From Planctomycetota bacterium (GTDB taxonomy: Bacteria > Planctomycetota > Planctomycetia > Gemmatales > Gemmataceae), in assembly GCA_016191165.1 (NCBI GenBank), contig JACPPF010000169.1, forward strand, positions 1 to 64,000: DNA of 64,000 nt, read 5' to 3'. The notes beneath the pieces were generated by a model, which saw only the letters and a list, made by a program, of their open reading frames with translations, was not told the DNA's origin and did no database searches. The translations under genes were made by a program, and so were the position numbers. This document shows, in pieces, positions 31,301 to 59,627 of the stretch. How positions within the stretch are numbered: the stretch's first letter is position 1; every line of letters begins with the position of its first letter.

Positions 31301-32767
31301 TTATTTCGGAGCTGATGGTAATGACACAAGGACATGTCCTTGTACGGCGAAGCCTCGTTCGCGGAGTCGGGCCTCCCAACCGTCGCGATTCCCGATCATC
31401 CTCGAATCATCGAGAAGACCATTCTCTTCTTCTTGCCGTGTAAGGTCGGCGAAATGCTGAAACGACGCATGATCCGGATGTAAAAACCTTTCCTTACGAT
31501 GGAGAATGGGCGGGTTCTCGCTTCTCGTGTAGTCATAGCATTCCAGCTGCCTAGCCCGCAACGAGAGCTTCACGCTTCGAAAAAGGGCCGGATGCGGATC
31601 GTTCTCGAAGTCGGGGTACACGAGGTAAGACACTTTTCCAGAAAACCGGTGCAGCTTGATGATATTTGCACCCTCTATTTCACCGAGGAAGCTTCGGGCG
31701 CAACCTTCGTAGATGCGAAGAAGAGGTTCGACGTGTTCCAAGGCACTTCGATGAAGGTATAGCGCGTTCGGCAACAGTTTCCCCACCGTCGACCTCTGGC
31801 ACGCTTCGTCGATGGCAGCCGCATCGCCTGCCCTGAATAGCAATAGGTCTGCCTGCGTGCACGCCTTCATGTACGTCCCGAAGAACGCTCGGAAATCGCG
31901 CTGCATGGTCGGCGGATAGCCGGAAAGCTTGGGGCGCTTCCGAAATCGGGCGAGAGCCAAGAAGACGAGAAGATCTTCCGTTCTTCGCCGGCGAATGGTG
32001 TCCCAGGCGTCCTCGCCCGTGACGCGGCGTACAAGAGCAAAGGCGCGCTTGAGCGATCCAAATCGGCTGATGATCTCTGGGCATTGACGAAACTCTTCGG
32101 GATCTGGTAGCCGCCCAAGAAGGGCGAGGGTGTTCATGAACGGATGCAGCACTTCCCGGTGTTCCTCGAATCGCCGTTCTGAAACTCTCTGCCGTGGCAC
32201 GGCTGGGCCACGCCGAACACGGCTTGCGAGAAACTGCTGACGATGGGCGTCGTCTTTGAACAAATAGAAGACGCCAACTGTCGCCGGAATTGCCTCCGTC
32301 TTTAATTCAGCTTCGAGGTACTCCCTGAGTTCAGCTTGCTCAAAAAACTTCTGAAACGTCCCACGGCTCGTCAAGACACCATCGCCGAACTCCGTAAATG
32401 CATTCCCACGGCCCGGAATGCGCACCAAGGTTGAGACGACCAATAGCCGTCGAGCAATTCGCCACGCATGCCGGAGTGTCGAACTTCGCTCGGCGGGGTC
32501 CTCAATGACGTTAAGAACATAGCCAAGATTGACGACATCCGCCTCGGATACAGGCTCGTTTGGACGGAACACGGGGTCCCAGCCTTTGCCTGAAATCCCT
32601 TGAGCACCGAGGAGGTCGATGTCCTCACCGTGGCCACAGCCGAAGTCGAAGAAGGTCACCAACGGACTAAGCAAACCATCCGCAAGAGCACATTTCACCG
32701 GCCGTGAGATGTCGTGGCGACGGATCGCCGTCTTGAACCGGAGAATCGGGGATTGATCGGCATCCAT
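31301..32767 (-). CDS. Phosphorothioation-associated putative methyltransferase
   Basis: A 488-residue protein. Residues about 10-120 form a SAM-binding domain: RFKTAIRRHDISRPVKCAL, then FFDFGCGHGEDIDLL as motif I, GWDPVFRPN, and NLGYVLNVIEDPAER. This block fits the family annotated as DNA phosphorothioation-associated putative methyltransferase. The long C-terminal part is helical and has no clear motif. I chose the ATG at 32767; the frame is open to a TTG at 32836, directly after the upstream stop. It is the final gene of the operon with the second DndD-like ATPase and the DndE-HerA fusion. Its substrate is unknown, possibly DNA, and no target-recognition domain is obvious. Confidence 0.75.
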   Translation of the reverse strand: MDADQSPILRFKTAIRRHDISRPVKCALADGLLSPLVTFFDFGCGHGEDIDLLGAQGISGKGWDPVFRPNEPVSEADVVNLGYVLNVIEDPAERSSTLRHAWRIARRLLVVSTLVRIPGRGNAFTEFGDGVLTSRGTFQKFFEQAELREYLEAELKTEAIPATVGVFYLFKDDAHRQQFLASRVRRGPAVPRQRVSERRFEEHREVLHPFMNTLALLGRLPDPEEFRQCPEIISRFGSLKRAFALVRRVTGEDAWDTIRRRRTEDLLVFLALARFRKRPKLSGYPPTMQRDFRAFFGTYMKACTQADLLLFRAGDAAAIDEACQRSTVGKLLPNALYLHRSALEHVEPLLRIYEGCARSFLGEIEGANIIKLHRFSGKVSYLVYPDFENDPHPALFRSVKLSLRARQLECYDYTRSENPPILHRKERFLHPDHASFQHFADLTRQEEENGLLDDSRMIGNRDGWEARLRERGFAVQGHVLVSLPSAPK

Positions 32768-32839
32768 CGTGTTTCCCAGATGGTCAAGTCCACGCGATCC
32801 CGCTGTCTCACTTGCTCCTGGAGGCGCCCTCGTCAAAGC

Positions 32840-34507
32840 TCAAGTTCGACCTGCCGGGAAGAGTTCAAAGAATGGAACAACGCGAAATTTCTTTATCGGC
32901 TGATCTCGCCCGCCCGAACCGCGACCAAGACCCGACAGCGGTTCCATCTTGCCCAACTCAGTGGCCAATCGTCTTGCTTCCGGAGGGCTGCACCCAAGCA
33001 GCCGCTGCACGGCCTTCGGCTCTGTTTTGCAGGCGAGCATGAACGTGAACTCAAGCTGTTCCGTGTAGTCAAAATCGCTCTGGTCGAAATCATCCGGCGA
33101 TTGGCAGAGCAGAACGACCGCGAAACCCTTGCTGCGCCCTTCACGGATTATCCCCTGAAGGAACCGGTTTTTCTTGCTGAGATAGTATTGGGCCTCATCA
33201 ATGAACAGCAGGCAGCGCACGTGCCGGAAGCCACTTTGCGGGTCCACTGTTGATTCAGGCAGAATGCGCATTTCATGGTACAGCTGTTCGATTAGTGTGA
33301 AAGCGGTGACCTCTTTCAGTCCCCCAAGCTCGTGAATGTCCACAATCCACCGCTGCGTATGGAGCGGCGAGATCGGCGGACTGTTTTCGGCACGCGTCCA
33401 AAACAACTTATAGGCGTTAAGGCGACGAAACAGCTCGATGAGGGAATCTGGTTGCAGGCCCTCGGCCTCGTAAATATCCCGCAAGACGGTAAACACGAAG
33501 CCGAAGTCGGGCGCAGGAATCGGATCTTCTGCCAGCATCTTGTAGCTGGTACGAATGGCCTGCACGAGCCGCCCCTCTTGTTTGGGGCCCAGATTGCGGA
33601 AGAGGTTCGTGTAGACCTCACGCTTCTCCTCCGCGGCCAGCACTACGGCATCCTGCGAATAGTCACGGAGGTGAAACGGTCCAATCGGCAATGTGGTGCT
33701 GGGCAGATTGAATACCTTGGCCCCGACAGTCTCGACGAAGGCCTGGTTGGAAGCAACGTCCCCCTTGGCGAAGTCGATGAAGATCATGCCAGTGGCTGGA
33801 TCGGCCGCGCGCAATGCGGATGCTGCCAACTGCATGGCAAGCTGGGTCTTCCCGCTGCCGCTCATGCCGCTGACGGCGAGATGGCAGTTGCTATGTTTTC
33901 GGGCGTCATTCAGTGTAAGCGTGAAAGGAGCCTCGCCTTCCTTGAACCGGCCGATCGGAACGGTCAGCCCGGGAACATGGCCAGCTAGAGCCGGGATCAC
34001 GTCTCTCGGCTGAGTGCCCTGACCGGTAGCGCCGACAGCGGTGTCAGCCGCCTTGCGGGCGAGTGACACGATGAATTCGACAACGCCTTTTGCCTCGTCT
34101 AGGTCTGTAACAAGGAGGTCCAACCCCCGGTGCCAGTGGGCCAGGATCAGATCAAAGGCTTCTTCATCAGACTGCAGGGCTTTTCCATGGTGTTCCGCCA
34201 GCAGCGCCACGAACCACGGCAGGATGGCCGGGTCACGGCGCGGTTGAGAATCGTGGCGCTGTTGAGCACCGTGCCGTTGCTGAGTCTCGTGTCCATAACG
34301 AAACAGCGTTTCTCCCCGAAGCTCCTTCCCTTTGCGCGCTGCTTCGACCCTGGGGGGAGCTGCCGGCTCACGCAGAGATCTGGCAATCGCCAGTCTGCTG
34401 AGGAGGTCATCCCGCCAACTGGTAGCTTGAGCAAGTCGACTCAGCTTGGCGTTTGCTTCTTCGGTGCTCTTGTAACGTCGCACCAGGAGTTGGCTAGTAA
34501 TACCCAT
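32840..34507 (-). CDS. DndE-like domain fused to HerA/FtsK-type ATPase
   Basis: A 555-residue protein. The first 150 residues resemble DndE: STEEANAKLSRLAQATSW, LLSRLAIARSLREPAAPP and GKELRGETLFRYG align with the DndE encoded at 59250-59627 (LSNEASERLKHLKARTGM, LSRLGFCLSLSDPAIP, FNRYTLLGE), and ILAHWHRGLDLL with AHLNRGVLSLF. A P-loop ATPase follows, with Walker A SGMSGSGKTQLA near 212 and Walker B RCLLFIDEAQYYL near 432, as in HerA/FtsK DNA motors. A low-complexity His/Gln/Arg stretch lies around 80-95. DndE binds DNA, so the fusion could be a DNA translocase recruited to modified or nicked DNA. It sits 37 bases after the DndD-like gene. The start has AAAGGGAAA upstream. Confidence 0.8.
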   Translation of the reverse strand: MGITSQLLVRRYKSTEEANAKLSRLAQATSWRDDLLSRLAIARSLREPAAPPRVEAARKGKELRGETLFRYGHETQQRHGAQQRHDSQPRRDPAILPWFVALLAEHHGKALQSDEEAFDLILAHWHRGLDLLVTDLDEAKGVVEFIVSLARKAADTAVGATGQGTQPRDVIPALAGHVPGLTVPIGRFKEGEAPFTLTLNDARKHSNCHLAVSGMSGSGKTQLAMQLAASALRAADPATGMIFIDFAKGDVASNQAFVETVGAKVFNLPSTTLPIGPFHLRDYSQDAVVLAAEEKREVYTNLFRNLGPKQEGRLVQAIRTSYKMLAEDPIPAPDFGFVFTVLRDIYEAEGLQPDSLIELFRRLNAYKLFWTRAENSPPISPLHTQRWIVDIHELGGLKEVTAFTLIEQLYHEMRILPESTVDPQSGFRHVRCLLFIDEAQYYLSKKNRFLQGIIREGRSKGFAVVLLCQSPDDFDQSDFDYTEQLEFTFMLACKTEPKAVQRLLGCSPPEARRLATELGKMEPLSGLGRGSGGRDQPIKKFRVVPFFELFPAGRT

Positions 34508-34544: not shown

Positions 34545-36587
34545 CTAAAGGATGTCGAAATAACCTTCCTCGATGCTGGTTCGCTCGTTTTCCGTGTCGA
34601 AAACCAAGTGTAACGTTTTATCCACGCAGCCGCGCACCTTGTTGAAGTACTGATGATCCAGTTCGGTGTCGGTCGAAAGCACCAAGACTTGAGGCCCGGC
34701 GGCGGGCAGATACTGCGTTACGATGTTGGTCCGGTGCTTGCTATCAAGGCGGCCGAGCGGAGTATCGATCACCACGGGCACCTCACGGCGCGAGGTCTTG
34801 GCCAAGCCCCACAGTAGGGCCAGGGCAAAAATTTCCTTTTCGCCGGCCGAGAACTCATCGATCGGAATGGAGTTACCCTGACGATCCAGAAGTCGTGGGT
34901 CATATGTCTGTTCATCCAGGTCAATGTCTTGGACAACGTCCTCCTTGCGTGCGAGGCGACGGTACATAGCCCTGAGGTTTTTACGCAGCTCATCCCGTTT
35001 TCGGGGGCGGAGTTCTTCCTGATACCGCTGGACCGCGCGACGCACATTGCGAGCCAGGGCAGCCAGTTCGCCGGACTTTCCGCTGCGGGCGAGATCGTCC
35101 TCCTTGCGCTGCCTCTGACGTCGCTTCTCCCCCAGTTCATGTTCTTTGTCGTCGGTCTGCCGGCGCTTCATGTCAAAAGCCTCTTCGGCCTGACCGCGTT
35201 CCCGACTCAGCCGGCTTTTTGTTTCGATCAGCTTTTCAATCTCTTCGCCCTCACCTACTTGTTGGAGGGTCGCCTTCAAATGATTTGCCCGTCTCTCAGC
35301 CGTTTCGAGGCGGTCCAGAAGGACACGCAAGTCAGGTGCCTGTCGACGAACGACTTCCGAGCACTTCGCCCGCACTTGGCTCACTTCCTCGGGGCTCAAA
35401 CAGTCGTGCCTGAGTTCCTTTGCCGCGCCTTCGGGAGGAGGATAGAAGAGGTTGTTCCATCGGTCTCGAAGCATGGTGGAGTAGAAGTCACGTTGATTCG
35501 GAACCAGCGGTGGGTCTGACTGTGGCGCTGCTGGGCTGAAAATCTCGGCCACAAGCCGTTCGAGTTGAGGCTGCACGCGGCGGCGCCCTTCGTCCCAGGT
35601 TCGAAAGAGTTCCTCACCGTGCAACTGTTGGACAAGCGAGTGAATTGGCTGCATCGGTAGCGCGAGCACGACAAATTCCTCGATCATTCCCTCGATTTGC
35701 TTTCGCAGTCCTTCGCTTTCCGCTTGAAGCTTTTCCTGTTCAGCTCGCAACTCCGCTGGCCGCTTCCCCTCTGGTCCGAGCATGCGATCAAGTCGCGCGT
35801 CGATCTTGCTGAGCTGTTCGTGGATTCCCGCGATCCGTTCCTCGAGGTCTTGTCGTTCGTGACTCAGTTCCTCAATCTGGCTTTCAAGCTGTTGCTCTTC
35901 AGCGGCTAGTCTTGTCAGCTCTACTTCTTGGTCGCTCCGTTTCTTGCTTTCCCGGCGATACCGGTTGTGCAATTCGTCGAGGTCGGTTTCGAGCTGCTGA
36001 AGCACCTGAAAGCCGAGCAACATATCGATGCCGTTGCGCACTTCCTCGTTGGGGTTGGCCTCGGCGATTCGTCGGATCTCTTCTCCATCGAACATGAAAA
36101 ACCGTCCGATATGGGGAGGGATCGTGTGCTTCAAATAATCTCGCTGTTCCTGGTCCGGATCCTGATCGAACTTAAGGGGCTCGCCGTCAAAGAGAATGTC
36201 AAGTCTTTCGTCCTTCATGCGCAGGGCATCATCGAAAGCCCACTCCCTGCGAACCTCGATCGTATGGCCTTTATCCAGCAAGTGAAGAGTTACAGCCGCT
36301 TGTCGCTTGCCCTCCCGATACGCGGCCCGATTGAGAAGGCTTGCCAGGATACGGTCGCGCTGGGACTTGCCTTCTCCAGCCCTCGCTAGTCCTTTGATGT
36401 ACAGAAAGGCGTCGTCATATCCGAACAGAGCAAACGTGATTGCATTGAGTAACGTGGTCTTGCCAGCGCCGTTCAGGCCGCCGATGACAACAAGATTCTT
36501 GCCGCTGCCTGGCACCACACTCAGGTCTGCTTGCTGGTGACCGTAGTAGCAGCCAAAATCTTCAAGTTCGACGCGTTGGATGATCAT
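34545..36587 (-). CDS. Second DndD-like SMC-type ATPase
   Basis: A 680-residue ABC/SMC ATPase related to the DndD encoded at 57203-59263. Walker A is GGLNGAGKTTLLNA (about 36-49). A long coiled coil spans about 200-480. The signature motif is FSAGEKEIFALALLWGLA near 577 and Walker B is VPVVIDTPLGRLDSKH near 605, followed by VLVLSTDTELDHQYF. These C-terminal blocks are nearly the same as in the canonical DndD (SAGEKQIFAISMLWALAQ, PIVIDTPLGRLDSDH). DndD is the DNA-nicking ATPase of phosphorothioation. This copy has its own partner set (DndC-tail protein and DndE-HerA) and no sulfur enzyme. AGGAGAAC precedes the ATG. It should be an active ATPase. Confidence 0.85.
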   Translation of the reverse strand: MIIQRVELEDFGCYYGHQQADLSVVPGSGKNLVVIGGLNGAGKTTLLNAITFALFGYDDAFLYIKGLARAGEGKSQRDRILASLLNRAAYREGKRQAAVTLHLLDKGHTIEVRREWAFDDALRMKDERLDILFDGEPLKFDQDPDQEQRDYLKHTIPPHIGRFFMFDGEEIRRIAEANPNEEVRNGIDMLLGFQVLQQLETDLDELHNRYRRESKKRSDQEVELTRLAAEEQQLESQIEELSHERQDLEERIAGIHEQLSKIDARLDRMLGPEGKRPAELRAEQEKLQAESEGLRKQIEGMIEEFVVLALPMQPIHSLVQQLHGEELFRTWDEGRRRVQPQLERLVAEIFSPAAPQSDPPLVPNQRDFYSTMLRDRWNNLFYPPPEGAAKELRHDCLSPEEVSQVRAKCSEVVRRQAPDLRVLLDRLETAERRANHLKATLQQVGEGEEIEKLIETKSRLSRERGQAEEAFDMKRRQTDDKEHELGEKRRQRQRKEDDLARSGKSGELAALARNVRRAVQRYQEELRPRKRDELRKNLRAMYRRLARKEDVVQDIDLDEQTYDPRLLDRQGNSIPIDEFSAGEKEIFALALLWGLAKTSRREVPVVIDTPLGRLDSKHRTNIVTQYLPAAGPQVLVLSTDTELDHQYFNKVRGCVDKTLHLVFDTENERTSIEEGYFDIL

Positions 36588-36630: not shown

Positions 36631-36852
36631 TCACTTGTCCTCCTTGTCGTTTGAAGTGACGAACTCCCTGAACAGGGAATCCAGCTGGGTCCAGATCAAG
36701 TGGCGGCGCCCCATCCCGAACACCTTCGTCTCTTCCTCAATTAGCGCCGCCACGAGACGCGGCGGAACGCCAATTTCGTCACACACGGATTCCAATACCG
36801 CGCGTTCATCGTCCGACAGGGATGGACTGCTCACCGTATCATCTGTTGACAT
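36631..36852 (-). CDS. Small stand-alone DndC C-terminal-domain-like protein
   Basis: A 73-residue protein. Residues 13-67 (DDERAVLESVCDEIGVPPRL, then VAALIEEETKVFGMGRR, IWTQLDSLFREF) align along their length with the last part of DndC at 55759-57201 (AKDQVILKDVCKKHGTPAEL, VARLIDVERQTQGMSRR, IYDRIEALFRQDW). The spacing is equal with almost no gaps, so it is a detached copy of the DndC tail. It contains no PP-loop. It is encoded directly upstream of the second DndD-like gene, the same order as dndC-dndD. The simplest reading is that it is the docking domain for DndD. GAGGGAGAG precedes the ATG. Confidence 0.75.
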   Translation of the reverse strand: MSTDDTVSSPSLSDDERAVLESVCDEIGVPPRLVAALIEEETKVFGMGRRHLIWTQLDSLFREFVTSNDKEDK

Positions 36853-36882: not shown

Positions 36883-37533
36883 TTACGGAACAAGGCGCCT
36901 TTCCAGGGCGGATTGGAATTCACTCTTGAATGCGGGCCAAATCGAATGCCGGCGAAGATAATCTAGTTCGCTGGGTAGGTCATCAGCCTGAGCCAGCGTC
37001 CGAAGGTTATCCGCTGTCGCGGTTTCAGGTGGAAGCCGCCGAACGAGTTCGTTGACGAGGTCATCGATCGAATGCAGAATCTTACGCAGATACCAAAGGA
37101 CGAGGGCAATGCACTTCGCGATGGCATTCTTGCGCCGGAAGCATGGCAGCGACAGCGATCGGGCGGTAGCGACCAGGCTCGCCACAAGGATCTCATGTAA
37201 TTCCCGGATCACCGTGCTCGCATCCGTGTCCGGCGGGTCATGTTCGCCAATGGATGAGGGAGCAGCTGCCAATTGACGACGGCGACGGCGAATTTTGTTT
37301 CTGGTGATCGTGCAAAGCCAACCGGCAAACGAGTCGCCAGGGCGGTCGAGCCGCAAATTCGTAATGCCTTTAATCGTGGCCAAGAAAACCTGCTGGGCCA
37401 CGTCATCCGCGTCAGCCGGCTGCAGCCCTGCATGCCGGCACCAATCAAGGATGGCCGGACCATATTGCTCAACCACCTGCTGCCATGCGTCTTCCGGATC
37501 TGTCGATCCGCGCACGATATCTGTCACCAGCAT
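36883..37533 (-). CDS. Sigma-70 region 2-like protein without recognisable region 4
   Basis: A 216-residue protein. The first 90 residues look like the core of an ECF sigma factor: WQQVVEQYGPAILDWCRHAG, DADDVAQQVFLATIKGI, then DSFAGWLCTITRNKIRRRRR. After this the expected region 4 helix-turn-helix is missing; the remainder is a different helical segment with PCFRRKNAIAKCIALVLWY in the middle. It may be an adapted regulator that no longer acts as a standard sigma factor, or a divergent one. AGGAG precedes the ATG. The gap to the gene upstream is 18 bases and to the DndC-tail gene 30 bases, so it belongs to the six-gene operon. Confidence 0.6.
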   Translation of the reverse strand: MLVTDIVRGSTDPEDAWQQVVEQYGPAILDWCRHAGLQPADADDVAQQVFLATIKGITNLRLDRPGDSFAGWLCTITRNKIRRRRRQLAAAPSSIGEHDPPDTDASTVIRELHEILVASLVATARSLSLPCFRRKNAIAKCIALVLWYLRKILHSIDDLVNELVRRLPPETATADNLRTLAQADDLPSELDYLRRHSIWPAFKSEFQSALERRLVP

Positions 37534-41836: not shown

Positions 41837-44005
41837 CTAAGTCACAGCATCGTGATCTCCTTCCTCTTTCTCCTCGACTGGAATGAAAAGCCCGAGCCCG
41901 AAATGACATTGATCCCCGATTGCGAACGGGCGTCGTGATATTCGTTTGTGGAATATCAAACAGAACATGCGGCCTGGCCCTCGCACTTCGTGATTTCGGC
42001 GACGCCGGCAGAATTCCAAGGATCGCACAAAGCGTTTGCCTCCCTGAACACGCAGGCCGCTAGAAGCACCGAACGTAAAAGCAGCGTCAGGCTCCTTCTG
42101 AAAACACCCTTGGTAACGGCTGCTTTGGGTCCCTAGACTGGCGAAGTGTGGGAGTTGCGCATACTCGATTGGCGGATCTATCACGGGAAAGTATTGGCGC
42201 GGGGGAATAGGCTGATGAAGCTCACCATTGGCGACCGAACGCTGAACAGCCACTAACTCTGCTGGCGCGTGATCGAATACAAGCTCCTGGATCACCACGT
42301 CGTCGTCTTGTTCAATGAGTTGCTGTTGCCGCAGTCGTTTGCGAATATCCTTCTTGATGCTGTGCGGACGCGATGAACGAGAGTTCCTGCCGCGAGACAG
42401 AGAAACGGGACAGAAGTATGGCGTTGCCGAAACGAACAGTTTCGAACATTCGCCATTGCTTGATGACTGCCACAATTGGTAGTCGCAATCTCGTCCGACA
42501 TAAATCGGCGTGACCAGAAGATCCGGGCGACCGCCGCGTTGGCGGAGCCGGGTCAGTCGTCGCATGGCGTCGATTTCGTGTCGTTCAAATCCCGCGCGTG
42601 CATAGACGGTCACATGGTCGAGCAGGCCGTCATTGTCTTCGTCCGTAGGCCACCAGAATGCGTGGTCGTGATTACGGCAGGGTTCCCCGTTCATCTCGTG
42701 CCCGCTCACTGCTCGGCCCGGGTGGCGCGCCAGTGCCATGACAGCCGAGCGGAAACGATCCGCGACGAACAAGGTGTCGGTGAGTGGCGGCAGAACCGGA
42801 CAGTGGACAGTGGCCGTATTCAGCGCATACACGACAAGATTGACAGACTCGGGTGTGCGGGACCGCACTTGTGGTCCAGGGCACGGGATATCAAACACAG
42901 CACGAGGAACGGCAAAGTGAACCCAGCGAGAACCGATGGGACGATCCAGACCATCTTTGAAGTCCTCACCCGATTCCCGAAGCAGACAGCGGAGAAGCGA
43001 GTACCGGGCGGGCTCACCCTTGAGGAGTTCCCGAAAATCGGCGTCTGGTGGGCGGGCCTCCGTGGCGACGGGTTTGGTGCGAGGTAGCAGATCGGTTACT
43101 TGAGCTTGCAGATCCTTGTCCCCACACGGAGCGAGACGGCGTTCGAGGTTGTAGTCTCGGTACTCCTTGCCATCCACCCTGCCGGTATCCTCGATGCAGG
43201 TGCAGCGCCAATGGGTTTGTGTTGTCCCTTCGATTACCACGTCCGGGAGTTCCGGCATATTGCCAACACGCGCGTTAGCGCGACACCACGACTCCGCCCG
43301 CCCGAAGTATGTCATCCGGCCGAGGACCAACTTGAGGTCCGCGAGTGATTGCGGATCGAGGTTAACATCAGGCCAGTGGAAAACGAGTGGTTGGTCCTTT
43401 CGCACCGTCACGAAGGTGTCGAAAACCGTAGAGCCGGAATTCCTGACGATGCCGCCTTCGTGAATTGGAAAGTATTGCCTCGTGTGACCACCGGCGACTT
43501 TGGGAAGCCAGATGGTCGTCGTTGTAGATAGTGCGTGAAGTAGGGTCGAAAGGCGCGAGAGTGGAATCTCGTCTGCTTCGATATCTGCAAGAGCGCGTGG
43601 GGGTACGGCTGCAATTAGGTTACGTAACTGCTCCAGCGCCCTCGCGAACGCATCGCCGGGGTTCGCGGCCTTCCAAGCGTCAACCTCCGCATCGGTCAGT
43701 GGCTCGTTCAGTCTCAACGTTTGCTTCGCCTTCGAGAATGACAACTTTTTCTTCGCTTCCGGTGGAACGCCGCGTTCCCTCGGTTTCGCCATTCCTGGGA
43801 CGGTAACGACGGGCTCCGGCTTCGGCGGTGGACCTTCATCTGGATAGGGCAGGGTCGTGAGCCCCCGCCCGGTGACGGCGACCAGGGCGCGGAGCAACCG
43901 CCAATGTGAAGGCGGCCACTCGACTCGGCCTTCGTTGTGGTGCGTCTGCCACGGGTGCAAGTGCGCTCGGCCAGTCAGGAAATGAAAGGAGATTGCGAGG
44001 CTCAT
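41837..44005 (-). CDS. csb2: Type I-G Cas5-Cas6-like protein Csb2
   Basis: A 722-residue Cascade subunit of the I-G (former I-U) system. Csb2 combines a Cas5-like part and a Cas6-like part in one protein, so it should both process crRNA and cap its 5' end. The N-terminal RAMP fold starts MSLAISFHFLTGRAHLHPW; a Cas5-type LGRMTYFGRAESWCRA block is near 245. The C-terminal third is rich in Arg/Ser with strand-turn patterns suited to Cas6. The start ATG at 44005 overlaps the csb1 stop by four bases. The frame continues upstream to 44071 but that part is unlike the family. The CRISPR array follows directly downstream. The catalytic residues of the Cas6 part could not be assigned. Confidence 0.85.
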   Translation of the reverse strand: MSLAISFHFLTGRAHLHPWQTHHNEGRVEWPPSHWRLLRALVAVTGRGLTTLPYPDEGPPPKPEPVVTVPGMAKPRERGVPPEAKKKLSFSKAKQTLRLNEPLTDAEVDAWKAANPGDAFARALEQLRNLIAAVPPRALADIEADEIPLSRLSTLLHALSTTTTIWLPKVAGGHTRQYFPIHEGGIVRNSGSTVFDTFVTVRKDQPLVFHWPDVNLDPQSLADLKLVLGRMTYFGRAESWCRANARVGNMPELPDVVIEGTTQTHWRCTCIEDTGRVDGKEYRDYNLERRLAPCGDKDLQAQVTDLLPRTKPVATEARPPDADFRELLKGEPARYSLLRCLLRESGEDFKDGLDRPIGSRWVHFAVPRAVFDIPCPGPQVRSRTPESVNLVVYALNTATVHCPVLPPLTDTLFVADRFRSAVMALARHPGRAVSGHEMNGEPCRNHDHAFWWPTDEDNDGLLDHVTVYARAGFERHEIDAMRRLTRLRQRGGRPDLLVTPIYVGRDCDYQLWQSSSNGECSKLFVSATPYFCPVSLSRGRNSRSSRPHSIKKDIRKRLRQQQLIEQDDDVVIQELVFDHAPAELVAVQRSVANGELHQPIPPRQYFPVIDPPIEYAQLPHFASLGTQSSRYQGCFQKEPDAAFTFGASSGLRVQGGKRFVRSLEFCRRRRNHEVRGPGRMFCLIFHKRISRRPFAIGDQCHFGLGLFIPVEEKEEGDHDAVT

Positions 44006-45351
44006 TCTTGGTCCTCGGCTTCTTCGGCGCCAGCCGTTTTCTTCTGTACCTTCTTCCACGCGTCGTTCCACTTCTTCAGGGCTTTCTTGATGACATCATG
44101 GGCGGGGTTGTCAACCTCTTCACCCTCGTTGTTATCCTTCTTCACCGGGTTCTTGTCCAATAGAGCCTGTTGGTCCTCTTCGGGCCATTCACCCGTGATG
44201 ACCAGCGCCTGGAACGTCTTCCTGTTGTTTCCTTTGCCTTCAATGAGCTGCTTCACCTCGGCTCGATCTGTGAAGCCTTCCAGAACAAAGTTCTCGGCGG
44301 AAAGCCCCTCGGTCAATGCCTCCTTGCCGACGATGTCCAATGCATATGTAACGACCACAACCCGCCGCCGGGCCCATTCGTCACCTTCGTTGTGACGGGG
44401 GAAACACCTGTCTCGGGCAGCAGAGAACGCATTCAGGATGTCTGGCGAGCATGGCCATTTGCCATTGCCGTCGCCAAGGTCCTGAGACTGGCCTTCTGGG
44501 CCGTCAAGCGTAACCTTCATGCCCAGGACTTGGAACTCGCAAGCCGTCCTCAGCCGAAGATGCTGGTGAAGGAACCGGTCGATCTTGTACAAAGCCCACG
44601 CCTGCAGGAACCGACTCTTATGGTCGTCAAGGCCGTACCCTTTCAGCGTTGACAGGTGGAGGATGAACGATGCGGTGATGCTCGACGATGTGAACTCTTG
44701 CCGGGGATAGGGGATATTGTCCTTCGCTGTCACCTCGCCCCGATACACGCCGCCGGAGTTTGCCTGGTTGGGCGAGCATGCTTCGATGTATGCCGAGACG
44801 AGCCGAGGTAGTCGAATGCGACCATCGATCTCTTCCAGGAAAACGCCGTGCAACACGCAGCCAGGATCGCGATCAAAGATGGTTGGGACCATGCGCCAAA
44901 TGTGAACTGGGCGCTGCTTGTTGGACCCGAGTGCTGTCTTCAGTTCTTCGCGATACACAGCACCGTCTCGCTTGGCGGCCAGAACGTACGGGGAAGCCAA
45001 GCGATGCGGCTCGCGCACGGACGATGTGAGGAATGTGTTGCCATTATGGCCGTCAAGGACGCGCACATACGGGACACCCAGGCAATCAGGGTTATAGTCC
45101 TCGCCTTGAAGGCAGACGTCCTCCAAGCGGTTGGCCATCGACTGAACGGATTCGACGAGCAGCATATCCACGGTTTCCGTAACCGGGGGCTGGTCACCGT
45201 TCGGAGCGGCGCGAACTCCTTTGTAGAGTGCCGGGCCGAGGTCCGGGAAGCCCGTCGGCTGGAAGCGGCCACCGCCGCCGGTGGCGACCTTGAGTTCGGC
45301 TTCGACGAGCAGCCGCGAGGCGGTATCGAGCGGGGTGAAATCAATCGGCAT
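44002..45351 (-). CDS. csb1: Type I-G Cas7-like protein Csb1
   Basis: A 449-residue backbone subunit that should polymerise along the crRNA. Family features include LLVESVQSMANRLEDVCL near 85-102, the block QANSGGVYRGEVTAKDNIPY near 195-215 with the following SSSITASFILHLSTLKGYG, and an acidic-basic C-terminal tail rich in Lys and Glu. The gene begins 14 bases after csx17 ends and overlaps csb2 (ATGA). Its size is at the upper end for Csb1 because of that charged tail of about 60 residues. Confidence 0.85.
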   Translation of the reverse strand: MPIDFTPLDTASRLLVEAELKVATGGGGRFQPTGFPDLGPALYKGVRAAPNGDQPPVTETVDMLLVESVQSMANRLEDVCLQGEDYNPDCLGVPYVRVLDGHNGNTFLTSSVREPHRLASPYVLAAKRDGAVYREELKTALGSNKQRPVHIWRMVPTIFDRDPGCVLHGVFLEEIDGRIRLPRLVSAYIEACSPNQANSGGVYRGEVTAKDNIPYPRQEFTSSSITASFILHLSTLKGYGLDDHKSRFLQAWALYKIDRFLHQHLRLRTACEFQVLGMKVTLDGPEGQSQDLGDGNGKWPCSPDILNAFSAARDRCFPRHNEGDEWARRRVVVVTYALDIVGKEALTEGLSAENFVLEGFTDRAEVKQLIEGKGNNRKTFQALVITGEWPEEDQQALLDKNPVKKDNNEGEEVDNPAHDVIKKALKKWNDAWKKVQKKTAGAEEAEDQE

Positions 45352-45365
45352 GGGCAGTCCTCCAG

Positions 45366-50794: not shown

Positions 50795-51078
50795 CAGGTC
50801 ACAATCACCACATCCTTAGCATCGTGCTTCTCCACCGGCCGGCCCAAGGCCTCAATTCCTTCAGCGCAGCGGTTGCACAGCGGGATGAACAGAACCTGGT
50901 CTTCCTGAAGGTTGATAATGTCATACAGCCGGCTCTTGAGTCGCACAAGGTCCGTTGTAGACAGGCGGCACAGGAACACCGAATACTGGCGACGAAAGCC
51001 GAAGTCTTCGCAAGTGCGGGCGACCTTGCGAAGACGCTTCGGATGGCAGATGTCGTAGGCCACCAAGTAGGTGTCCAT
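50794..51078 (-). CDS. cas2: Cas2 adaptation protein
   Basis: A 94-residue protein, normal size for Cas2. It begins MDTYLVAYDICHPKRLRKVA, with the ferredoxin-like first strand ending in the conserved Asp, followed by FRRQYSVFLCRLS and VLFIPLCNRC. The ATG at 51078 gives the standard start; the frame runs further to 51153 without family support. The cas3 start overlaps its stop by one base. With the Cas4-Cas1 fusion it forms the spacer-acquisition complex. Confidence 0.93.
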   Translation of the reverse strand: MDTYLVAYDICHPKRLRKVARTCEDFGFRRQYSVFLCRLSTTDLVRLKSRLYDIINLQEDQVLFIPLCNRCAEGIEALGRPVEKHDAKDVVIVT

Positions 51079-51112
51079 TGCGTTCGCCGGGAATCGTCGC
51101 GGCGCCTCCAGG

Positions 51113-52849: not shown

Positions 52850-52890
52850 TTGAGGTTCCTTTCGATGATGAGGTCGAATCCAGATCGTGT

Positions 52891-54354: not shown

Positions 54355-55617
54355 ATGGATCAAGTTTTCCGACGGGATCGAGTTTCAGGGACGCCAGGGC
54401 ATGACTTCAAGAATGGAATCGAAAGCAACCGTTTTCTGCGCTACTGGTTGACCGAAAAAATAGATGACGCCAAGCTGTTCACGCGGGTATTGCGGTCAAG
54501 GAGGGCCGAGCTGGTGGATAATGCGCACACTTTTTCTGCAATTCGTGGGGTTCAAGGTGGCCGCGACTATTACGTTGCCATGGTCCCGCTGAAAGTCGTC
54601 CCAAAGCTCTTCCTTTTCGACGACGCCGAGCTGCCGCCTGATCTACGCGCGCAACGAACGCTGAACCGCGCGCGTGTGCCGGACATTGCCCGTTACTTGA
54701 TCGACAATCCGAAGAACTACACGTTCTCTTCGTTGACGGCGTCGGTGGACGGTCGAGTTCATTTCGAGCCCTCCGGGGACGCCGGGTATGCCGGGAGCAT
54801 CGGCCGTTTACTGGTGCCCATGACCGCGAGATTCCTCATCAACGATGGCCAGCACCGCCGGGCGGCCATTGAGGAGGCGCTGAGGGAACGGCCCGAACTG
54901 GGAGAAGAAACCCTTTCGGTCATTTTTTTCATCGACGCCGGCCTGAAACGCAGCCAGCAGATGTTTGCTGACCTGAACCGGCATGTAGTACGGCCGCCGC
55001 AATCGCTCGGTGTTCTGTATGACCACCGCGATCCGTTTGCCCAACTCGTCTGCCGACTCGTTGGTCGCGTGAGCGTCTTCAAGAATCTGACCGAGATGGA
55101 GAAGACTTCGGTCCCCACCCAGGCGAACAAGCTCTTTTCCTTGAGCGGGGTGCATCAAGCGACCCGAACACTCCTCGCGCTGGGTAAGAAGCGGCGGGTC
55201 ACGCAAGAGCAGGAAGACCTTGCCTGGGATTACTGGCAGGAAGTCGGACGGTGTATCCCTGACTGGCAGCTGGCGGCAGAGAAAAAAGTCAGCTGCGTTG
55301 AGTTGCGGCGGGATTATGTTCATGCCCACGGTGTAACATTGCTCGCCTTCGGGTTCCTCGGATCTTCCCTTCTGGCCAAAGAGCCTACGACCTGGAAAGG
55401 GACGCTCAAGCCACTTCGGAAGCTGGATTGGGCACGCTCCAATGCCGAGACCTGGGAGGGACGAGCCCTCGTGGGAGGCCGCATCAGCAAGGCACACATC
55501 AACGTCTTGTTGACCACGAACCTGCTGAAACAGTGCGTGGGCGTTCCTCTCTCCGACACGGAACGCCAGGTCGAAACGGATTTTGTGCACCGGCGGACTG
55601 CTCGAAACGCAGGTTAA
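54355..55617 (+). CDS. dndB: DndB, regulator of DNA phosphorothioation
   Basis: A 420-residue protein with the DGQHR motif that defines the DndB group: FLINDGQHRRAAIEEAL near 160-176, followed by VIFFIDAGLKRSQQMFADLN. DndB is not needed for sulfur transfer but modulates the modification and represses dnd expression in studied systems. It is encoded upstream of dndC in the same direction, 141 bases apart. The N-terminal 20 residues before HDFKNGIESNRFLRYW are poorly conserved, so the start could lie slightly downstream. Confidence 0.88.
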   Translation: MDQVFRRDRVSGTPGHDFKNGIESNRFLRYWLTEKIDDAKLFTRVLRSRRAELVDNAHTFSAIRGVQGGRDYYVAMVPLKVVPKLFLFDDAELPPDLRAQRTLNRARVPDIARYLIDNPKNYTFSSLTASVDGRVHFEPSGDAGYAGSIGRLLVPMTARFLINDGQHRRAAIEEALRERPELGEETLSVIFFIDAGLKRSQQMFADLNRHVVRPPQSLGVLYDHRDPFAQLVCRLVGRVSVFKNLTEMEKTSVPTQANKLFSLSGVHQATRTLLALGKKRRVTQEQEDLAWDYWQEVGRCIPDWQLAAEKKVSCVELRRDYVHAHGVTLLAFGFLGSSLLAKEPTTWKGTLKPLRKLDWARSNAETWEGRALVGGRISKAHINVLLTTNLLKQCVGVPLSDTERQVETDFVHRRTARNAG

Positions 55618-55758
55618 TCCACCCGAGATATCGAAGGAAACGCCGGCGGGCCGTGGCATCGCTTTTGTCATCGCGCCAATCCAGTTGTAGAATCAGCCTT
55701 GTTGGGCCGGTGCCCGAAGGGGACCGGCGTCGGTGCCACGTACTCGAGGATAGGGACA

Positions 55759-57201
55759 ATGGCAGTGTCATTGCCGCTAGTTGAGCGAAAGGAGCCTTCC
55801 GCCTTCGAGCGAAAGTCCGTTAAGGCTTTTCAAGAGGAGGTGCAAGGGATCTACCTTGCCGACAATCGTCCGTGGGTTGTGGGCTATAGCGGCGGGAAGG
55901 ACTCGACCGCGACGCTGCAGCTCGTCTGGTATGCGGTGGCTGGACTTCCTCCCGAGCAGCGAAAAAAGCCGGTCTACGTGATCGCCTCTGATACCTTCGT
56001 CGAGACCCCGGTCATTGTTGACTACATCGACGACAACCTCGAAGCGATCAACCGCGCCGCCAAGGAACAGGGCATGCCCTTCGAGGCGCACAAGGTAACG
56101 CCCGAGATCAAGGATACCTTCTGGGTGAACCTGATCGGCCGAGGCTACCCGCCACCTTCGACCAAGTTCCGATGGTGCACCGACCGCATGAAGATCCAGC
56201 CGGCGAACAAGTTCATCCTTGATCGCGTGGCCGAGTTCGGCGAGGTCATCATGGTCCTTGGCTCTCGCCAGGGCGAGAGCGCCAGTCGCGACCAGGTGCT
56301 CAAGGCCCATGCGATCAAAGGTTCCCGCCTTCGACGCCACAGCACACTCGCGAACGCGTTCGTCCTGGCACCCATTGAAGAGTTCACGACCGATGACGTT
56401 TGGACTTACATCCTTCAAGTCAAGTGTCCCTGGGGCACCAACAACAACCGCCTCGTGACCATGTACCGCAACGCGGGGGCCGGCGAATGCCCCCTTGTGG
56501 TGGACACGAGCACGCCATCGTGCGGCAACAGCCGGTTCGGCTGCTGGGTCTGCACCGTCGTCGAACAAGACCACTCCATGGAATCGATGGTGGACAGCGG
56601 CGAAGAGTGGATGGAGGCGCTGCTCGATTTCCGCAACCTGCTCAAGTCCCACCACGATCCGGAAGTGAAACGCAAAGTGCGCCGACTGAAGCGCCGCGAT
56701 GGCAAGATCAGGCTCAAGAAAGACGGCACGCCGTCCCCTGGTCCGTACGAGCTTGAAGAACGCAAGAAACTGCTGCGAACCCTTCTCGAAGTTCAACAGC
56801 AGGTAAGGCGAGAAGGTCCCGATCCTGACAACCGGCTCATCTCGGCCGGGGAACTGCATGAAATCCGCAGCATCTGGCGAACCGAGGAGTCGGATTGGGA
56901 AGATTCTGTTCCCGTCATCTACCGGCAGGTCGTGGGAGAGGATCTGGATTGGGTGCATGACGACGTAACCGCTCTCACCGCGAAGGACCAAGTAATCCTG
57001 AAGGACGTTTGCAAGAAGCACGGCACGCCCGCCGAACTGGTTGCCAGGCTGATCGACGTGGAACGCCAGACCCAAGGCATGAGCCGGCGTGCGGGTATCT
57101 ACGACCGTATTGAAGCGCTATTCCGCCAGGACTGGCCGGACGAGGCAGCCAGAGAGGCTTTTCGCTTGGGGCCGGACAAAACAGGGGAGGAAGACAACTG
57201 A
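55759..57201 (+). CDS. dndC: DndC, sulfurtransferase-type PP-loop enzyme of DNA phosphorothioation
   Basis: A 480-residue enzyme of the PAPS-reductase fold. The ATP-pyrophosphatase PP-loop is GYSGGKDSTATLQ (about 43-55). Cysteines able to hold the Fe-S cluster appear in FRWCTDRMK near 141 and in ECPLV, PSCGNSRFGCWVC near 244-264. It should activate DNA phosphate with ATP and accept sulfur supplied by a cysteine desulfurase. The C-terminal domain (about 410-465) is the part duplicated as a separate protein at 36631. The ATG at 55759 follows AGGATAGGGAC; the frame is open to 55699. dndD starts one base after its stop. No dndA gene is in the window. Confidence 0.95.
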   Translation: MAVSLPLVERKEPSAFERKSVKAFQEEVQGIYLADNRPWVVGYSGGKDSTATLQLVWYAVAGLPPEQRKKPVYVIASDTFVETPVIVDYIDDNLEAINRAAKEQGMPFEAHKVTPEIKDTFWVNLIGRGYPPPSTKFRWCTDRMKIQPANKFILDRVAEFGEVIMVLGSRQGESASRDQVLKAHAIKGSRLRRHSTLANAFVLAPIEEFTTDDVWTYILQVKCPWGTNNNRLVTMYRNAGAGECPLVVDTSTPSCGNSRFGCWVCTVVEQDHSMESMVDSGEEWMEALLDFRNLLKSHHDPEVKRKVRRLKRRDGKIRLKKDGTPSPGPYELEERKKLLRTLLEVQQQVRREGPDPDNRLISAGELHEIRSIWRTEESDWEDSVPVIYRQVVGEDLDWVHDDVTALTAKDQVILKDVCKKHGTPAELVARLIDVERQTQGMSRRAGIYDRIEALFRQDWPDEAAREAFRLGPDKTGEEDN

Positions 57202-57202
57202 C

Positions 57203-59263
57203 ATGTTACTCCACCGCCTCGTTGTCCAGGACTTCGGGCTCTTTCGTGGCCGCAATGAATTAGATTTGGCCCCGCGCATCCGCTACCGACAGCGGCGTCC
57301 GGTCGTTCTGATCGGCGGGAAAAATGGCTCCGGAAAGACAACATTGCTCGATGCCGTCCGTCTCTGCCTTTACGGTCCTCTGGCCCTGGGACCGAGGGTG
57401 AGCGTTCGGGAATACGAAGCCTACCTCAACGACCGCATCCACCGGGCCAATGGGCGACTCATTTCGCCGGAAGGGGCCTCGGTGGGGGTGGAATTCCTTT
57501 ATGCCCAGGCCGGCGTCCAACACACCTATTCGGTTGAACGCCGCTGGGAGCGGCGCGGCAGCGGCAGCGTCCGGACGGAAACAACAGTTCTCTGCGATGG
57601 GAAGCCTCTCGGCGAGCTTGAGCGCACGCAGGCGGATGAATTCCTGCGCGACCTAATCCCGCCTGGCGTGTCGCAGTTGTTTTTCTTCGACGGGGAGAAA
57701 ATCCAGCAGCTCGCAGAAACGGCCCATGACCAGACCGCACTGGCGGAAGCCGTGCGTGGCCTCACCGGGCTTGAATTGCTGGAGCGTCTTCAGGCGGACC
57801 TGCGCACCTACGCCGCGAAAAACCGTGACGCAGCCGAGGAGCAACCGCTACGACGGCAACAAGTGGCGCTCGTGGAGGAGCGGCGGCAGCTCGACGAGCG
57901 ACTCCGAGTTGCCACCCGAGATGTCGACGAAGCTCAGAGTGCGGAAGATGGATGTAGGCAAGAGATCGAACGCGAGAAACAGCGCTTGGCGCGCATGGGC
58001 GGGAGTTTTGCAGCAAAGCGCGAATCCTACGAAGCAGAACGGGCCCACCTGAAACAGGCCATCATTGAAGTTGAAGCCGAACTCCGTGAATCGTGCGAGG
58101 GGCTACTTCCATTCGTGCTTTGCTCCGCCCAGTGTCGCTCGCTCGGCCAACAGTTAGCGGAGGAAGACAAGGTTCAACAGTGGGTGGCGCACGAGGCGGC
58201 AATCAAGGGCCGGCTTGCCGACCTGAAGCAAGGTGCCAAGGACGCGCTTTTTCCGGCCAACGATTCACTGGATGTTTCTGCACGCGTCCGCAAGACGCTC
58301 GTTCAACGTGTTGGTCTTTTACTAGACCGTTTGGCGGAGCCTCCAGAGGATCTGCCGACTGTGACCACACTCCACAAGGTGTCGGAAGATGACCGCCAGC
58401 GGTTGCTCAGCGCGATCGACCGGATCTCGCACGACATGCCAAAACTGCTGAGCAAACTTCAGAAACGACTCGAACGGTCTACGCGCCGGCTGCAGGAGGT
58501 GGAGGTGGCGCTGGAGAAGATCCCCGCCGACGAGATTATTCAGCCGGTCGTTGAGCGTTTGCAGACACTTTATCAAGAACTGGGCAGCGCCGAGGCAGCA
58601 ACCAAACGAGCCGACCTGAGCAAGCGCGAGGTCGAGCTGCACCTTGAGGACCTGGGACGCCGCGAGCGCAAACTCGCCGAACGGCTCGCAGACCTCGGCC
58701 GAATGGCGGATCGGCGTGTGCAGCTGGGCAAGGTCCAGATCGTGGTGGACGAGTTCACCGAAGCGCTAACCACAGCCAAGATTCAAGAACTTCGTGACGC
58801 GGTCGTTCGCTGTTTTGGGCAGCTGTGGCGGAAGGGCGACCTGATCCGGCGAATCGAAATCGATCCCAAGACTTTCCAGGTCACGCTCTTTGACGCGCAT
58901 GACCGGCCGGCGCCGAAGGATCAATTGTCGGCTGGCGAGAAACAAATCTTCGCCATTTCGATGCTTTGGGCGCTCGCGCAGCTCTCCGGGCGGCCCTTGC
59001 CGATCGTTATCGACACGCCTTTGGGCAGGCTTGACAGCGACCACCGCGGCTACCTTGTGGACCGGTATTTTCCCAACGCCAGCCACCAGGTAATCGTGCT
59101 CTCCACGGACACCGAAATCGACCAGGCGTCCTTCAAGGCGCTGAGTCCTTCGGTGAGCCACGCCTACCACCTGCGTTATGATGAGCTGGAGCAATGCTGC
59201 ATGGTGGAGCCGGGTTATTTTTGGGGCAGAACCGAAACGGAGACGCTCGATGCAGCTAAATAA
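57203..59263 (+). CDS. dndD: DndD, SMC-type ATPase of DNA phosphorothioation
   Basis: A 686-residue ABC/SMC-like ATPase thought to nick and remodel DNA for sulfur insertion. Walker A is GGKNGSGKTTLLDAV near 36-50; a coiled coil spans about 215-540; the signature SAGEKQIFAISMLWALA lies near 575, followed by Walker B PIVIDTPLGRLDSDH and VIVLSTDTEIDQA. The start is one base after the dndC stop, and the end overlaps dndE by 14 bases, so the three are one translation unit. A paralogue lies at 34545-36587. The protein has normal length. Confidence 0.93.
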   Translation: MLLHRLVVQDFGLFRGRNELDLAPRIRYRQRRPVVLIGGKNGSGKTTLLDAVRLCLYGPLALGPRVSVREYEAYLNDRIHRANGRLISPEGASVGVEFLYAQAGVQHTYSVERRWERRGSGSVRTETTVLCDGKPLGELERTQADEFLRDLIPPGVSQLFFFDGEKIQQLAETAHDQTALAEAVRGLTGLELLERLQADLRTYAAKNRDAAEEQPLRRQQVALVEERRQLDERLRVATRDVDEAQSAEDGCRQEIEREKQRLARMGGSFAAKRESYEAERAHLKQAIIEVEAELRESCEGLLPFVLCSAQCRSLGQQLAEEDKVQQWVAHEAAIKGRLADLKQGAKDALFPANDSLDVSARVRKTLVQRVGLLLDRLAEPPEDLPTVTTLHKVSEDDRQRLLSAIDRISHDMPKLLSKLQKRLERSTRRLQEVEVALEKIPADEIIQPVVERLQTLYQELGSAEAATKRADLSKREVELHLEDLGRRERKLAERLADLGRMADRRVQLGKVQIVVDEFTEALTTAKIQELRDAVVRCFGQLWRKGDLIRRIEIDPKTFQVTLFDAHDRPAPKDQLSAGEKQIFAISMLWALAQLSGRPLPIVIDTPLGRLDSDHRGYLVDRYFPNASHQVIVLSTDTEIDQASFKALSPSVSHAYHLRYDELEQCCMVEPGYFWGRTETETLDAAK

Positions 59264-59627
59264 AATCCGTCTCTCGAACGAGGCGTCTGAGCGCCTCAAA
59301 CACCTGAAGGCTCGGACGGGCATGACGCCCAACATCCTCAGCCGGCTCGGGTTTTGCCTTTCTCTGTCGGACCCGGCGATACCGAACTCGGAGAGCTACC
59401 CGGAAGAAGACCGTGAGTTCAACCGCTACACGCTGCTCGGCGAGTGGGACGACCTGTTCGTGGCGCTCTTGCGTCAACGCCTGGCCCAAGACAACCTCTC
59501 CGAGGATCTCCTGGAAGCCCAGTTCCGCGCGCATCTGAACAGGGGCGTGCTGTCCCTATTCGGGCTCGTCAAGAGTATGTCTGACCTGGCCGTCCTCTGC
59601 GAACGAGCCGCAAGCCGACATGAATAG
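59250..59627 (+). CDS. dndE: DndE, DNA-binding protein of phosphorothioation
   Basis: A 125-residue protein of typical DndE size. It begins MQLNKIRLSNEASERLKHLK and contains LSRLGFCLSLSDPAIP and AHLNRGVLSLFGLVKS, the latter near the C-terminus. DndE is a small DNA-binding protein that prefers nicked DNA in studied systems. The gene overlaps dndD by 14 bases; the frame is open upstream but ATG 59250 matches the family. No further dnd gene follows. Its paralogous domain is fused to a HerA motor at 32840-34507. Confidence 0.92.
   Translation: MQLNKIRLSNEASERLKHLKARTGMTPNILSRLGFCLSLSDPAIPNSESYPEEDREFNRYTLLGEWDDLFVALLRQRLAQDNLSEDLLEAQFRAHLNRGVLSLFGLVKSMSDLAVLCERAASRHE

Follow-up and report, generated by a model that had tools for sequence, protein, structure and literature searches.

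The operon described here raises the question of what a DndE domain joined to a DNA motor may do when it is encoded with a second DndD and a small protein, and with no DndC, on the same contig as a dndBCDE operon. It was studied within a window, that is, the whole stretch of 64,000 nucleotides analysed, from a Planctomycetota bacterium of the Gemmataceae (assembly GCA_016191165.1, contig JACPPF010000169.1, positions 1 to 64,000). The fusion is a known architecture because it is described in PMC10853773 (Rakesh, Aravind and Krishnan, 2024), in passages of which HerA/FtsK motors of clade 3 form fusions with DndE and have a DndD-related ABC ATPase as neighbour, the DndE-HerA/FtsK fusions are placed in phosphorothioate (PT)-modification systems and the DndE-HerA fusion is credited to reference 24 of that paper. 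The protein of the window likewise carries HerA/FtsK and DndE in one polypeptide next to a DndD-related ABC ATPase, and was likened to the clade 3 fusions by architecture and neighbour. The same passages regard the small protein as mostly disordered and a possible negative regulator and report a diversity of DndE; the main-text passages, figures and supplements aside, mention neither a DndC-tail small protein in fusion systems nor a DndC-less arrangement with a methyltransferase. No DndE fusions were found in passages of PMC8569181 or PMC11662687. What is new is the DndC-less, tail-bearing, motor-DndE operon, the fusion itself being already known. In passages of PMC6459918 (Xiong, 2019), pbeB, pbeC and pbeD, forming a module next to dndCDEA, were each required for defence and the function of pbeB was left unknown.

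Domain Architecture of the Fusion Protein

The 555-residue protein is well supported, by family profiles and predicted fold, as an N-terminal DndE domain followed by a HerA/FtsK motor, which is the architecture that an earlier note had read from the letters alone. That note also held that the N-terminal 150 residues align to the stand-alone DndE of the window; a similarity does exist, but it is weak and confined to residues 9–69 (BLASTP, 26.2 bits, E 4e-4). Pfam DndE (PF08870) spans residues 13–136 with 22.6 bits, under its cut-off of 25, TIGR03184 gave 23 bits, far under its cut-off of 71.85, and the DndE score of the protein in the genome search was 28 bits. The assignment was considered settled because eight of the nine fusion-family members match Pfam DndE (best E 3.2e-9), the window protein alone being below the cut-off. 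The N-terminus appears, on these profiles, to be a divergent member of DndE and not an equivalog. Structure prediction, which the note had named as a check, gave a DndE-like fold for residues 1–160: the first 17 PDB matches were all crystal DndEs, and comparison with 7x4e (VIA) gave a Z of 13.8 and an rmsd of 2.6 over 112 residues. This test is not fully independent, because the alignment consists mostly of other DndEs. The elements of the AF2 model (E11-13, H16-29, H33-45 and E62-64, H95-107, H114-138) are supportive of two ribbon-helix-helix (strand-helix-helix) units and a C-terminal helix in one chain. The full-length protein folded without an alignment reached a pLDDT of 36.9, and that model was discarded.

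In the motor, Walker A (GMSGSGKTQ) starts at residue 214 and Walker B (LLFIDEAQ) at 433, agreeing with the HerA-style motifs noted earlier near 212 and 432. GRSKG was also found, within a stretch that starts at 453, as was CQSPDD, starting at about 468. The two Walker motifs and the arginine and glutamine conserved after them are all present, and these motifs are conserved across the nine-row family alignment. DUF87, the HerA central domain, was detected in 9/9 and HerA_C in 8/9 of the family members. Residues 182–483 were matched by the PADLOC DndH models (best E 1.3e-25); the best match begins at model position 1342/1715, and the models cover the fusion only from about position 1240 of about 1390–1715. 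A profile of the nine family members matched the solved DptH motor 7es4 with an E of 9.9e-33. By both comparisons the motor is nearest to the one in the restriction protein DndH/DptH. Domain-profile scans found no nuclease domain in the fusion or in the rest of its operon.

Operon Organization and Comparison with Known Systems

The operon runs on one strand in the order 73-residue small protein, DndD2, DndE-HerA and TIGR04096 methyltransferase (Table 1). Its reading frames are separated by 43, 37 and 72 bp, DndE-HerA standing 37 bp downstream of the second DndD. The small protein, and the joining of DndD2 and the methyltransferase in one operon, go beyond the earlier note. The methyltransferase was taken to start at the ATG at 32767, a TTG at 32836 being possible, and its family has a single copy in the genome. 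DndD2 has the ABC motifs and no C-x-C in its sequence, and hence is without a CxC hook. Profile scans of the operon reading frames found no DndC, and therefore the operon does not amount to a complete PT writer (DndCDE). The sole DndC detected in the genome is that of the separate dndBCDE operon (54355–59627), which lies on the opposite strand, 17.5 kb away. Consensus promoter and terminator scans gave results no better than chance.

Table 1. Coordinates of the features of the two dnd operons in the window.
Feature	Position	Strand	Remarks
TIGR04096 DNA phosphorothioation-associated putative methyltransferase, last operon gene	31301..32767	minus	584 bits, cut-off 150
DndE-HerA fusion	32840..34507	minus	ATG start, 555 aa
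HerA/FtsK motor domain, about residues 181–555	32840..33967	minus	PADLOC DndH C-terminal part; 7es4 DptH; Walker A/B
DndE domain, residues 1–160	34028..34507	minus	AF2 pLDDT 85.2 (19-row alignment); Foldseek and VIA matches 7x4e, 4lrv, 5wtu
Second DndD (DndD2), 680 aa, ABC ATPase and coiled coil	34545..36587	minus	TIGR03185 382 bits, cut-off 245.85
Small protein, 73 aa, operon gene 1	36631..36852	minus	Probable C-terminal DndC tail; same kind as PbeB / 'DNA modification system-associated small protein'
DndB, canonical operon	54355..55617	plus	TIGR03233 473 bits
DndC, canonical operon, 500 aa	55699..57201	plus	TIGR03183 580 bits
Tail of the DndC of the window, residues 425–477	about 56971-57129	plus	BLASTP
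DndD, canonical operon	57089..59263	plus	TIGR03185 513 bits
Stand-alone DndE, canonical operon	59178..59627	plus	TIGR03184 90 bits, cut-off 71.85

Three known systems were compared with this unit. Like canonical DndBCDE, it has a DndD-DndE pair, and the DndC tail of the canonical system is homologous to its small protein; the canonical system differs in having a stand-alone DndE and one full-length DndC. As in PbeABCD, a small protein, an ABC ATPase and a DndE occur with no DndC of their own near a separate writer operon, and the PADLOC PbeB model matches the small protein (E 1.8e-5). Unlike PbeABCD, DndD2 is without the CxC hook, the operon is without PbeA and a motor is fused to DndE; assignment to a true PbeABCD system was rejected for the first two of these differences. 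TIGR04095 we take to be the model of PbeA (HKD nuclease and SF2 helicase). No PbeA-type nuclease above the family cut-off was found in the operon or anywhere in the genome, the best TIGR04095 match being one of 125 bits against a cut-off of 600, on another contig, and sub-cut-off matches to this model also occur in 7 of 14 control genomes. The fusion shares with DndFGH its C-terminal HerA/FtsK motor of the DndH/DptH kind, whereas DndF, DndG and the N-terminal and nuclease parts of DndH are missing from the operon and DndE takes their place; neither DndF nor DndG was found among the 9 + 8 window reading frames scanned with PADLOC. A truncated DndH was rejected as an explanation, given that DndE stands where the long DndH N-terminal part would be and that at other loci the fusion occupies the DndE place.

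The Small Protein and the C-Terminal Tail of DndC

The small protein matched residues 425–477 of the DndC of the window with 43.9 bits (BLASTP, E 4e-11 for a single comparison, 38% identity over 53 residues). With PADLOC models it matched positions 400–457/468 of DndC (E 4.4e-7) and positions 15–61/65 of PbeB, and with TIGR03183 positions 391–445/447 (E 0.0048). A blind tail HMM, built solely from 17 canonical DndC tails and run on 4561 reading frames from 16 loci, gave it 30.5 bits (E 9e-8). At E ≤ 0.5 this HMM had 15 matches, namely the DndC of the window itself and 14 small reading frames, the weakest of the latter with an E of 0.15 (L117); every assessable motor-DndE locus (14/14) has one such frame immediately 5' of its DndD. 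None of 17980 shuffled small reading frames reached 10 bits or more. Similarly, hhalign of the small proteins against the DndC tail gave 96.8% with an E of 2.2e-10 and 38% identity, and PADLOC applied to 8 of the 14 small proteins matched the C-terminal end of DndC in 7/8 (E ≤ 0.1) and PbeB in 3/8. The DndC proteins of the motor loci, in turn, end before the canonical tail in 11/11 aligned.

A site for such a tail is suggested by passages of PMC12193691, in which the globular domain of DndD binds E. coli DndC 433–482 in an AlphaFold3 model, the DndC substitutions L458D/E462A/R471A abolish DndC-DndD binding in a pull-down, and DndE is bound by coiled coil 2 of DndD, a ring around DNA being modelled. 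At 458, 462 and 471, the DndC of E. coli strain H240 carries L, E and R. It is to the stretch 433–482 that the small proteins are homologous, and in the small protein of the window L, E and R likewise occupy the three docking positions. Over the 14 tails these positions hold L in 13/14, E in 7/14 and R in 6/14 (K in 3/14), so that the exact docking contacts are not strictly kept. Taken together, these homology searches identify the small protein as what appears to be the severed C-terminal tail of DndC, the DndD-docking segment, and it would be expected to dock on DndD2. No statement of the small protein as a DndC tail was found in the main-text passages of the literature searched, figures and supplements aside. 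If PbeB-like proteins are detached DndC tails, their role would be to occupy or to bridge the DndC-docking site of DndD, which is directly testable. Of all the results, the identity of the small protein as a tail most deserves testing.

Tail-like small reading frames were also observed 5' of CxC-type ABC ATPase genes, at L026 (4059–4334), L038 (11830–12135) and L056 (188–403), in a search of nine loci, some of uncertain CxC type. Scores were 8.9 bits (L038) and 7.8 bits (L026) with the tail HMM and 7.1 bits with the small-protein HMM (L056), with E values of 0.25–0.57, so that tail likeness at the CxC loci is suggestive only. Such frames are as expected if PbeB too is a severed tail.

Relatives of DndE-HerA

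The search for further DndE-HerA fusions, which the earlier note had called for, yielded 10 loci including the window. The other nine are in G388 (L017), the M. extorquens AM1 megaplasmid (L106), G529 (L117), G714 (L118), G920 (L132), G900 (L133), G858 (L134), G808 (L135) and an IMG/VR contig (L152). At 7/10 (L106, L117, L132, L133, L134, L135 and L152) the order is DndC, DndD, DndE-HerA, with the fusion in the place of DndE; the remaining three are the window itself and L017 and L118, which are cut by contig ends inside DndD. The fusion is the sole Pfam-detectable DndE in G920, G900, G858 and G529, each with a DndC beside it. In G808 and G388 the absence of a second DndE is less sure, because their fused DndE parts escape Pfam. 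Related operons that have the same set with a tail-less DndC look like complete PT writers in which the fusion would serve as DndE.

DndE-HerA was rare in the samples examined. A single-protein search of the phylum sample gave a long match in 2/392 genomes, that of the window included, plus one remnant, and a profile search of the class sample gave 5/248, the genome of the window counted and motor-only matches and the remnant excluded. The alphaproteobacterial sample contained DndE-HerA in 2/385 genomes and the family of G388 in 1/39, i.e., G388 itself. No relative was found when genome contigs were scanned with the fusion protein, or viral contigs with single-protein queries, searches that reach close relatives only.

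A Second Motor Fusion, DndE-FtsK

DndE was also found fused to an FtsK-type motor at six plasmid or viral-contig loci: Mesorhizobium (L108), Rhizobium RCAM05350 (L107, frame-broken), Aureimonas (L111), R. phaseoli (L112), B. glumae (L113) and an IMG/VR contig (L153). Four of these proteins were scanned, matching FtsK_SpoIIIE in 4/4, DndE in 3/4 and FtsK_alpha in 3/4. The order dndC, small protein, dndD, DndE-FtsK was present at 4/6 loci. The nearest parallel to the operon of the window is seen in Mesorhizobium and Rhizobium, where small protein, second DndD and DndE-FtsK form a set without DndC behind an operon that has its own stand-alone DndE. A DndE-FtsK profile matched 0/385 genomes of the alphaproteobacterial sample at 1e-120, a limit too strict to signify absence. 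The only literature found on DndE, FtsK and phosphorothioate was PMC10853773, the passages of which (figures and supplements aside) do not mention DndE fused to an alpha-domain FtsK. DndE is thus joined to two DNA motors, HerA-type and FtsK-type, with the fusion standing in for DndE in operons. The two motor fusions raise the possibility of powered travel of the sulfur-writing complex itself along DNA which, if true, would alter the picture of target scanning by DndCDE.

Phylogenetic Placement

The DndD tree comprised 30 rows, 11 of the 41 rows of a quick tree having been dropped as short, very long-branched or redundant. The DndD partners of fused DndE form a clade supported at 100/99, in which a single partner of a stand-alone DndE, from Mesorhizobium, is also included. 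DndD2 of the window joins this motor clade weakly (79/70 in the 30-row tree; 87 SH-aLRT in the quick tree), and the canonical DndD of the window groups with the partners of stand-alone DndEs (92/91, 30-row tree). Seven CxC-type proteins form a clade of their own, apart from DndD2, in the quick tree, and DndD2 is accordingly placed in the DndD clade and not with the CxC type. The DndE trees agree weakly, placing the fused DndE of the window with the motor group at a support of 61; the DndE of L017, whose branch is very long, groups with the stand-alone DndEs.

Proposed Function and Alternative Readings

The reading preferred here, with a probability of roughly one half, is that the operon encodes a motor-equipped, DndCDE-like ring, tail-docked and without a sulfur-inserting enzyme of its own, that would act beside the dndBCDE writer as PbeBCD does. 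The fused DndE domain would clamp the coiled coil of DndD2 and DNA, the HerA/FtsK ring would move duplex DNA by pumping or sliding, and the DndC seat of the ring would be filled by the 73-residue tail alone, docked on DndD2. Such a ring might scan DNA beside the separate writer, in the manner of PbeBCD and in a defence role, and it is proposed without a sulfur-inserting step because the set of the window has no DndC of its own; the methyltransferase may take some part in this. The wider formulation, that the small protein of Dnd/Pbe-type loci is the severed DndC docking tail and that the window encodes a non-writing, DNA-pumping surveillance complex beside an intact writer, is put forward a little more tentatively. 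Counting against the preferred reading are the weak placement of DndD2 with the motor clade, the loosely kept docking contacts, the possibility that the DndC of the other operon could act in trans, the failure to find in this genome any PbeA-type nuclease over the family cut-off as an effector, and the methyltransferase, which is not tied to the fusion outside the window (0/80 loci, fetched from the best 80 of 443 TIGR04096 relatives). PMC9239217 reports, in the passages concerned, that DndE prefers nicked DNA for binding, and the earlier note had supposed that this binding targets a translocase, perhaps to PT sites. DndE tethering the motor is a fair reading of the protein, but self-targeting to PT sites is unsupported, because the fusion has the make-up of a DndE subunit in a complex centred on DndD, and at seven of the ten loci it holds the DndE position.

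Three other explanations were weighed. The small protein, DndD2 and DndE-HerA might form a second writer that borrows the DndC of dndBCDE in trans and places PT at a second motif, the motor aiding its travel. The same gene set with DndC forms apparent complete writers elsewhere, the genome of the window has one DndC, and two DndD/DndE pairs could give two specificities, which would fit the DndE diversity reported in passages of PMC10853773. Nevertheless, this is held to be somewhat unlikely: the DndC of the window bears its own tail (residues 425–477), which would compete with the separate one, the DndC of all 11 aligned motor loci is tail-less, and G388, a DndE-HerA genome that is 99% complete, has no detectable DndC, its contig being cut. 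Loss of dndC could instead have left a decaying, non-functional remnant of a complete DndC-small protein-DndD-DndE-HerA operon, and related loci do decay, as seen in G350, where besides the ten loci a remnant, a 241-residue piece of DndE-HerA, is overlapped by a transposase-like reading frame, and in G900, where neither dndC nor dndD remains in one frame (DndC being in two). Such an origin was considered quite improbable, since all four genes of the window are open, the ATPase motifs are kept in DndD2 and the fusion, the genes lie close together, the tail persists as a separate gene and has a plausible candidate ribosome site (GAGGGAGAG) ahead of its ATG, and a similar DndC-less unit of small protein, DndD2 and DndE-FtsK lies in Mesorhizobium behind a complete dndACDE.

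A DndH-like restriction component, in which the motor would serve a DNA-cutting complex as effector arm and DndE would be no more than its DNA anchor, would fit the resemblance of the motor to that of DndH/DptH. It was judged very unlikely, as the profile scans detected no nuclease domain in fusion or operon, the long N-terminal part of DndH is missing and the fusion replaces DndE in writer-type operons of other genomes.

Accessory and Neighbouring Genes

In the window, a 216-residue sigma-70 region 2 protein (36883–37533) is encoded on the same strand 30 bp upstream of the small protein; its second half has no Pfam family and no region 4 match. This protein may have a regulatory role, or its gene may have been cut at the border of the inserted operon. 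A type I-G CRISPR-Cas system (41837–52900) with Csb2 (744 aa), Csb1, Csx17, Cas3, Cas2 and a Cas4-Cas1 fusion lies between the two dnd operons. The transposase-like frame of G350 occupies 8320–9732 of L018, where it overlaps the 5' side of the truncated DndE-HerA. Candidate effectors were observed at two DndE-HerA loci, namely a HATPase_c_3 gene behind the fusion in G858 (L134, 10626–12278) and, in G808, AAA_21 and DUF3226 genes that precede DndC (L135, 15287–17439). After DndE-FtsK, a gene annotated as a TusA-family sulfurtransferase, a possible sulfur donor, occurs in Aureimonas (L111, 9410–9646) and R. phaseoli (L112, 10533–10736).

The TIGR04096 family was surveyed through the best 80 of its 443 relatives and was dropped as a marker of DndE-HerA, with the fusion at none of these 80 loci and a DndE directly upstream in 28/80 and apart in 52/80, some flanks being short. 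TIGR04096 proteins often have a second copy of their own C-terminal part (about query residues 295–387 to 486), which is N-terminal in L057, L070, L065, L012 and L011 and weakly C-terminal in L035 and L047. In the TIGR04096 protein of Rhizobium L107, a frame-broken locus, the order looks permuted.
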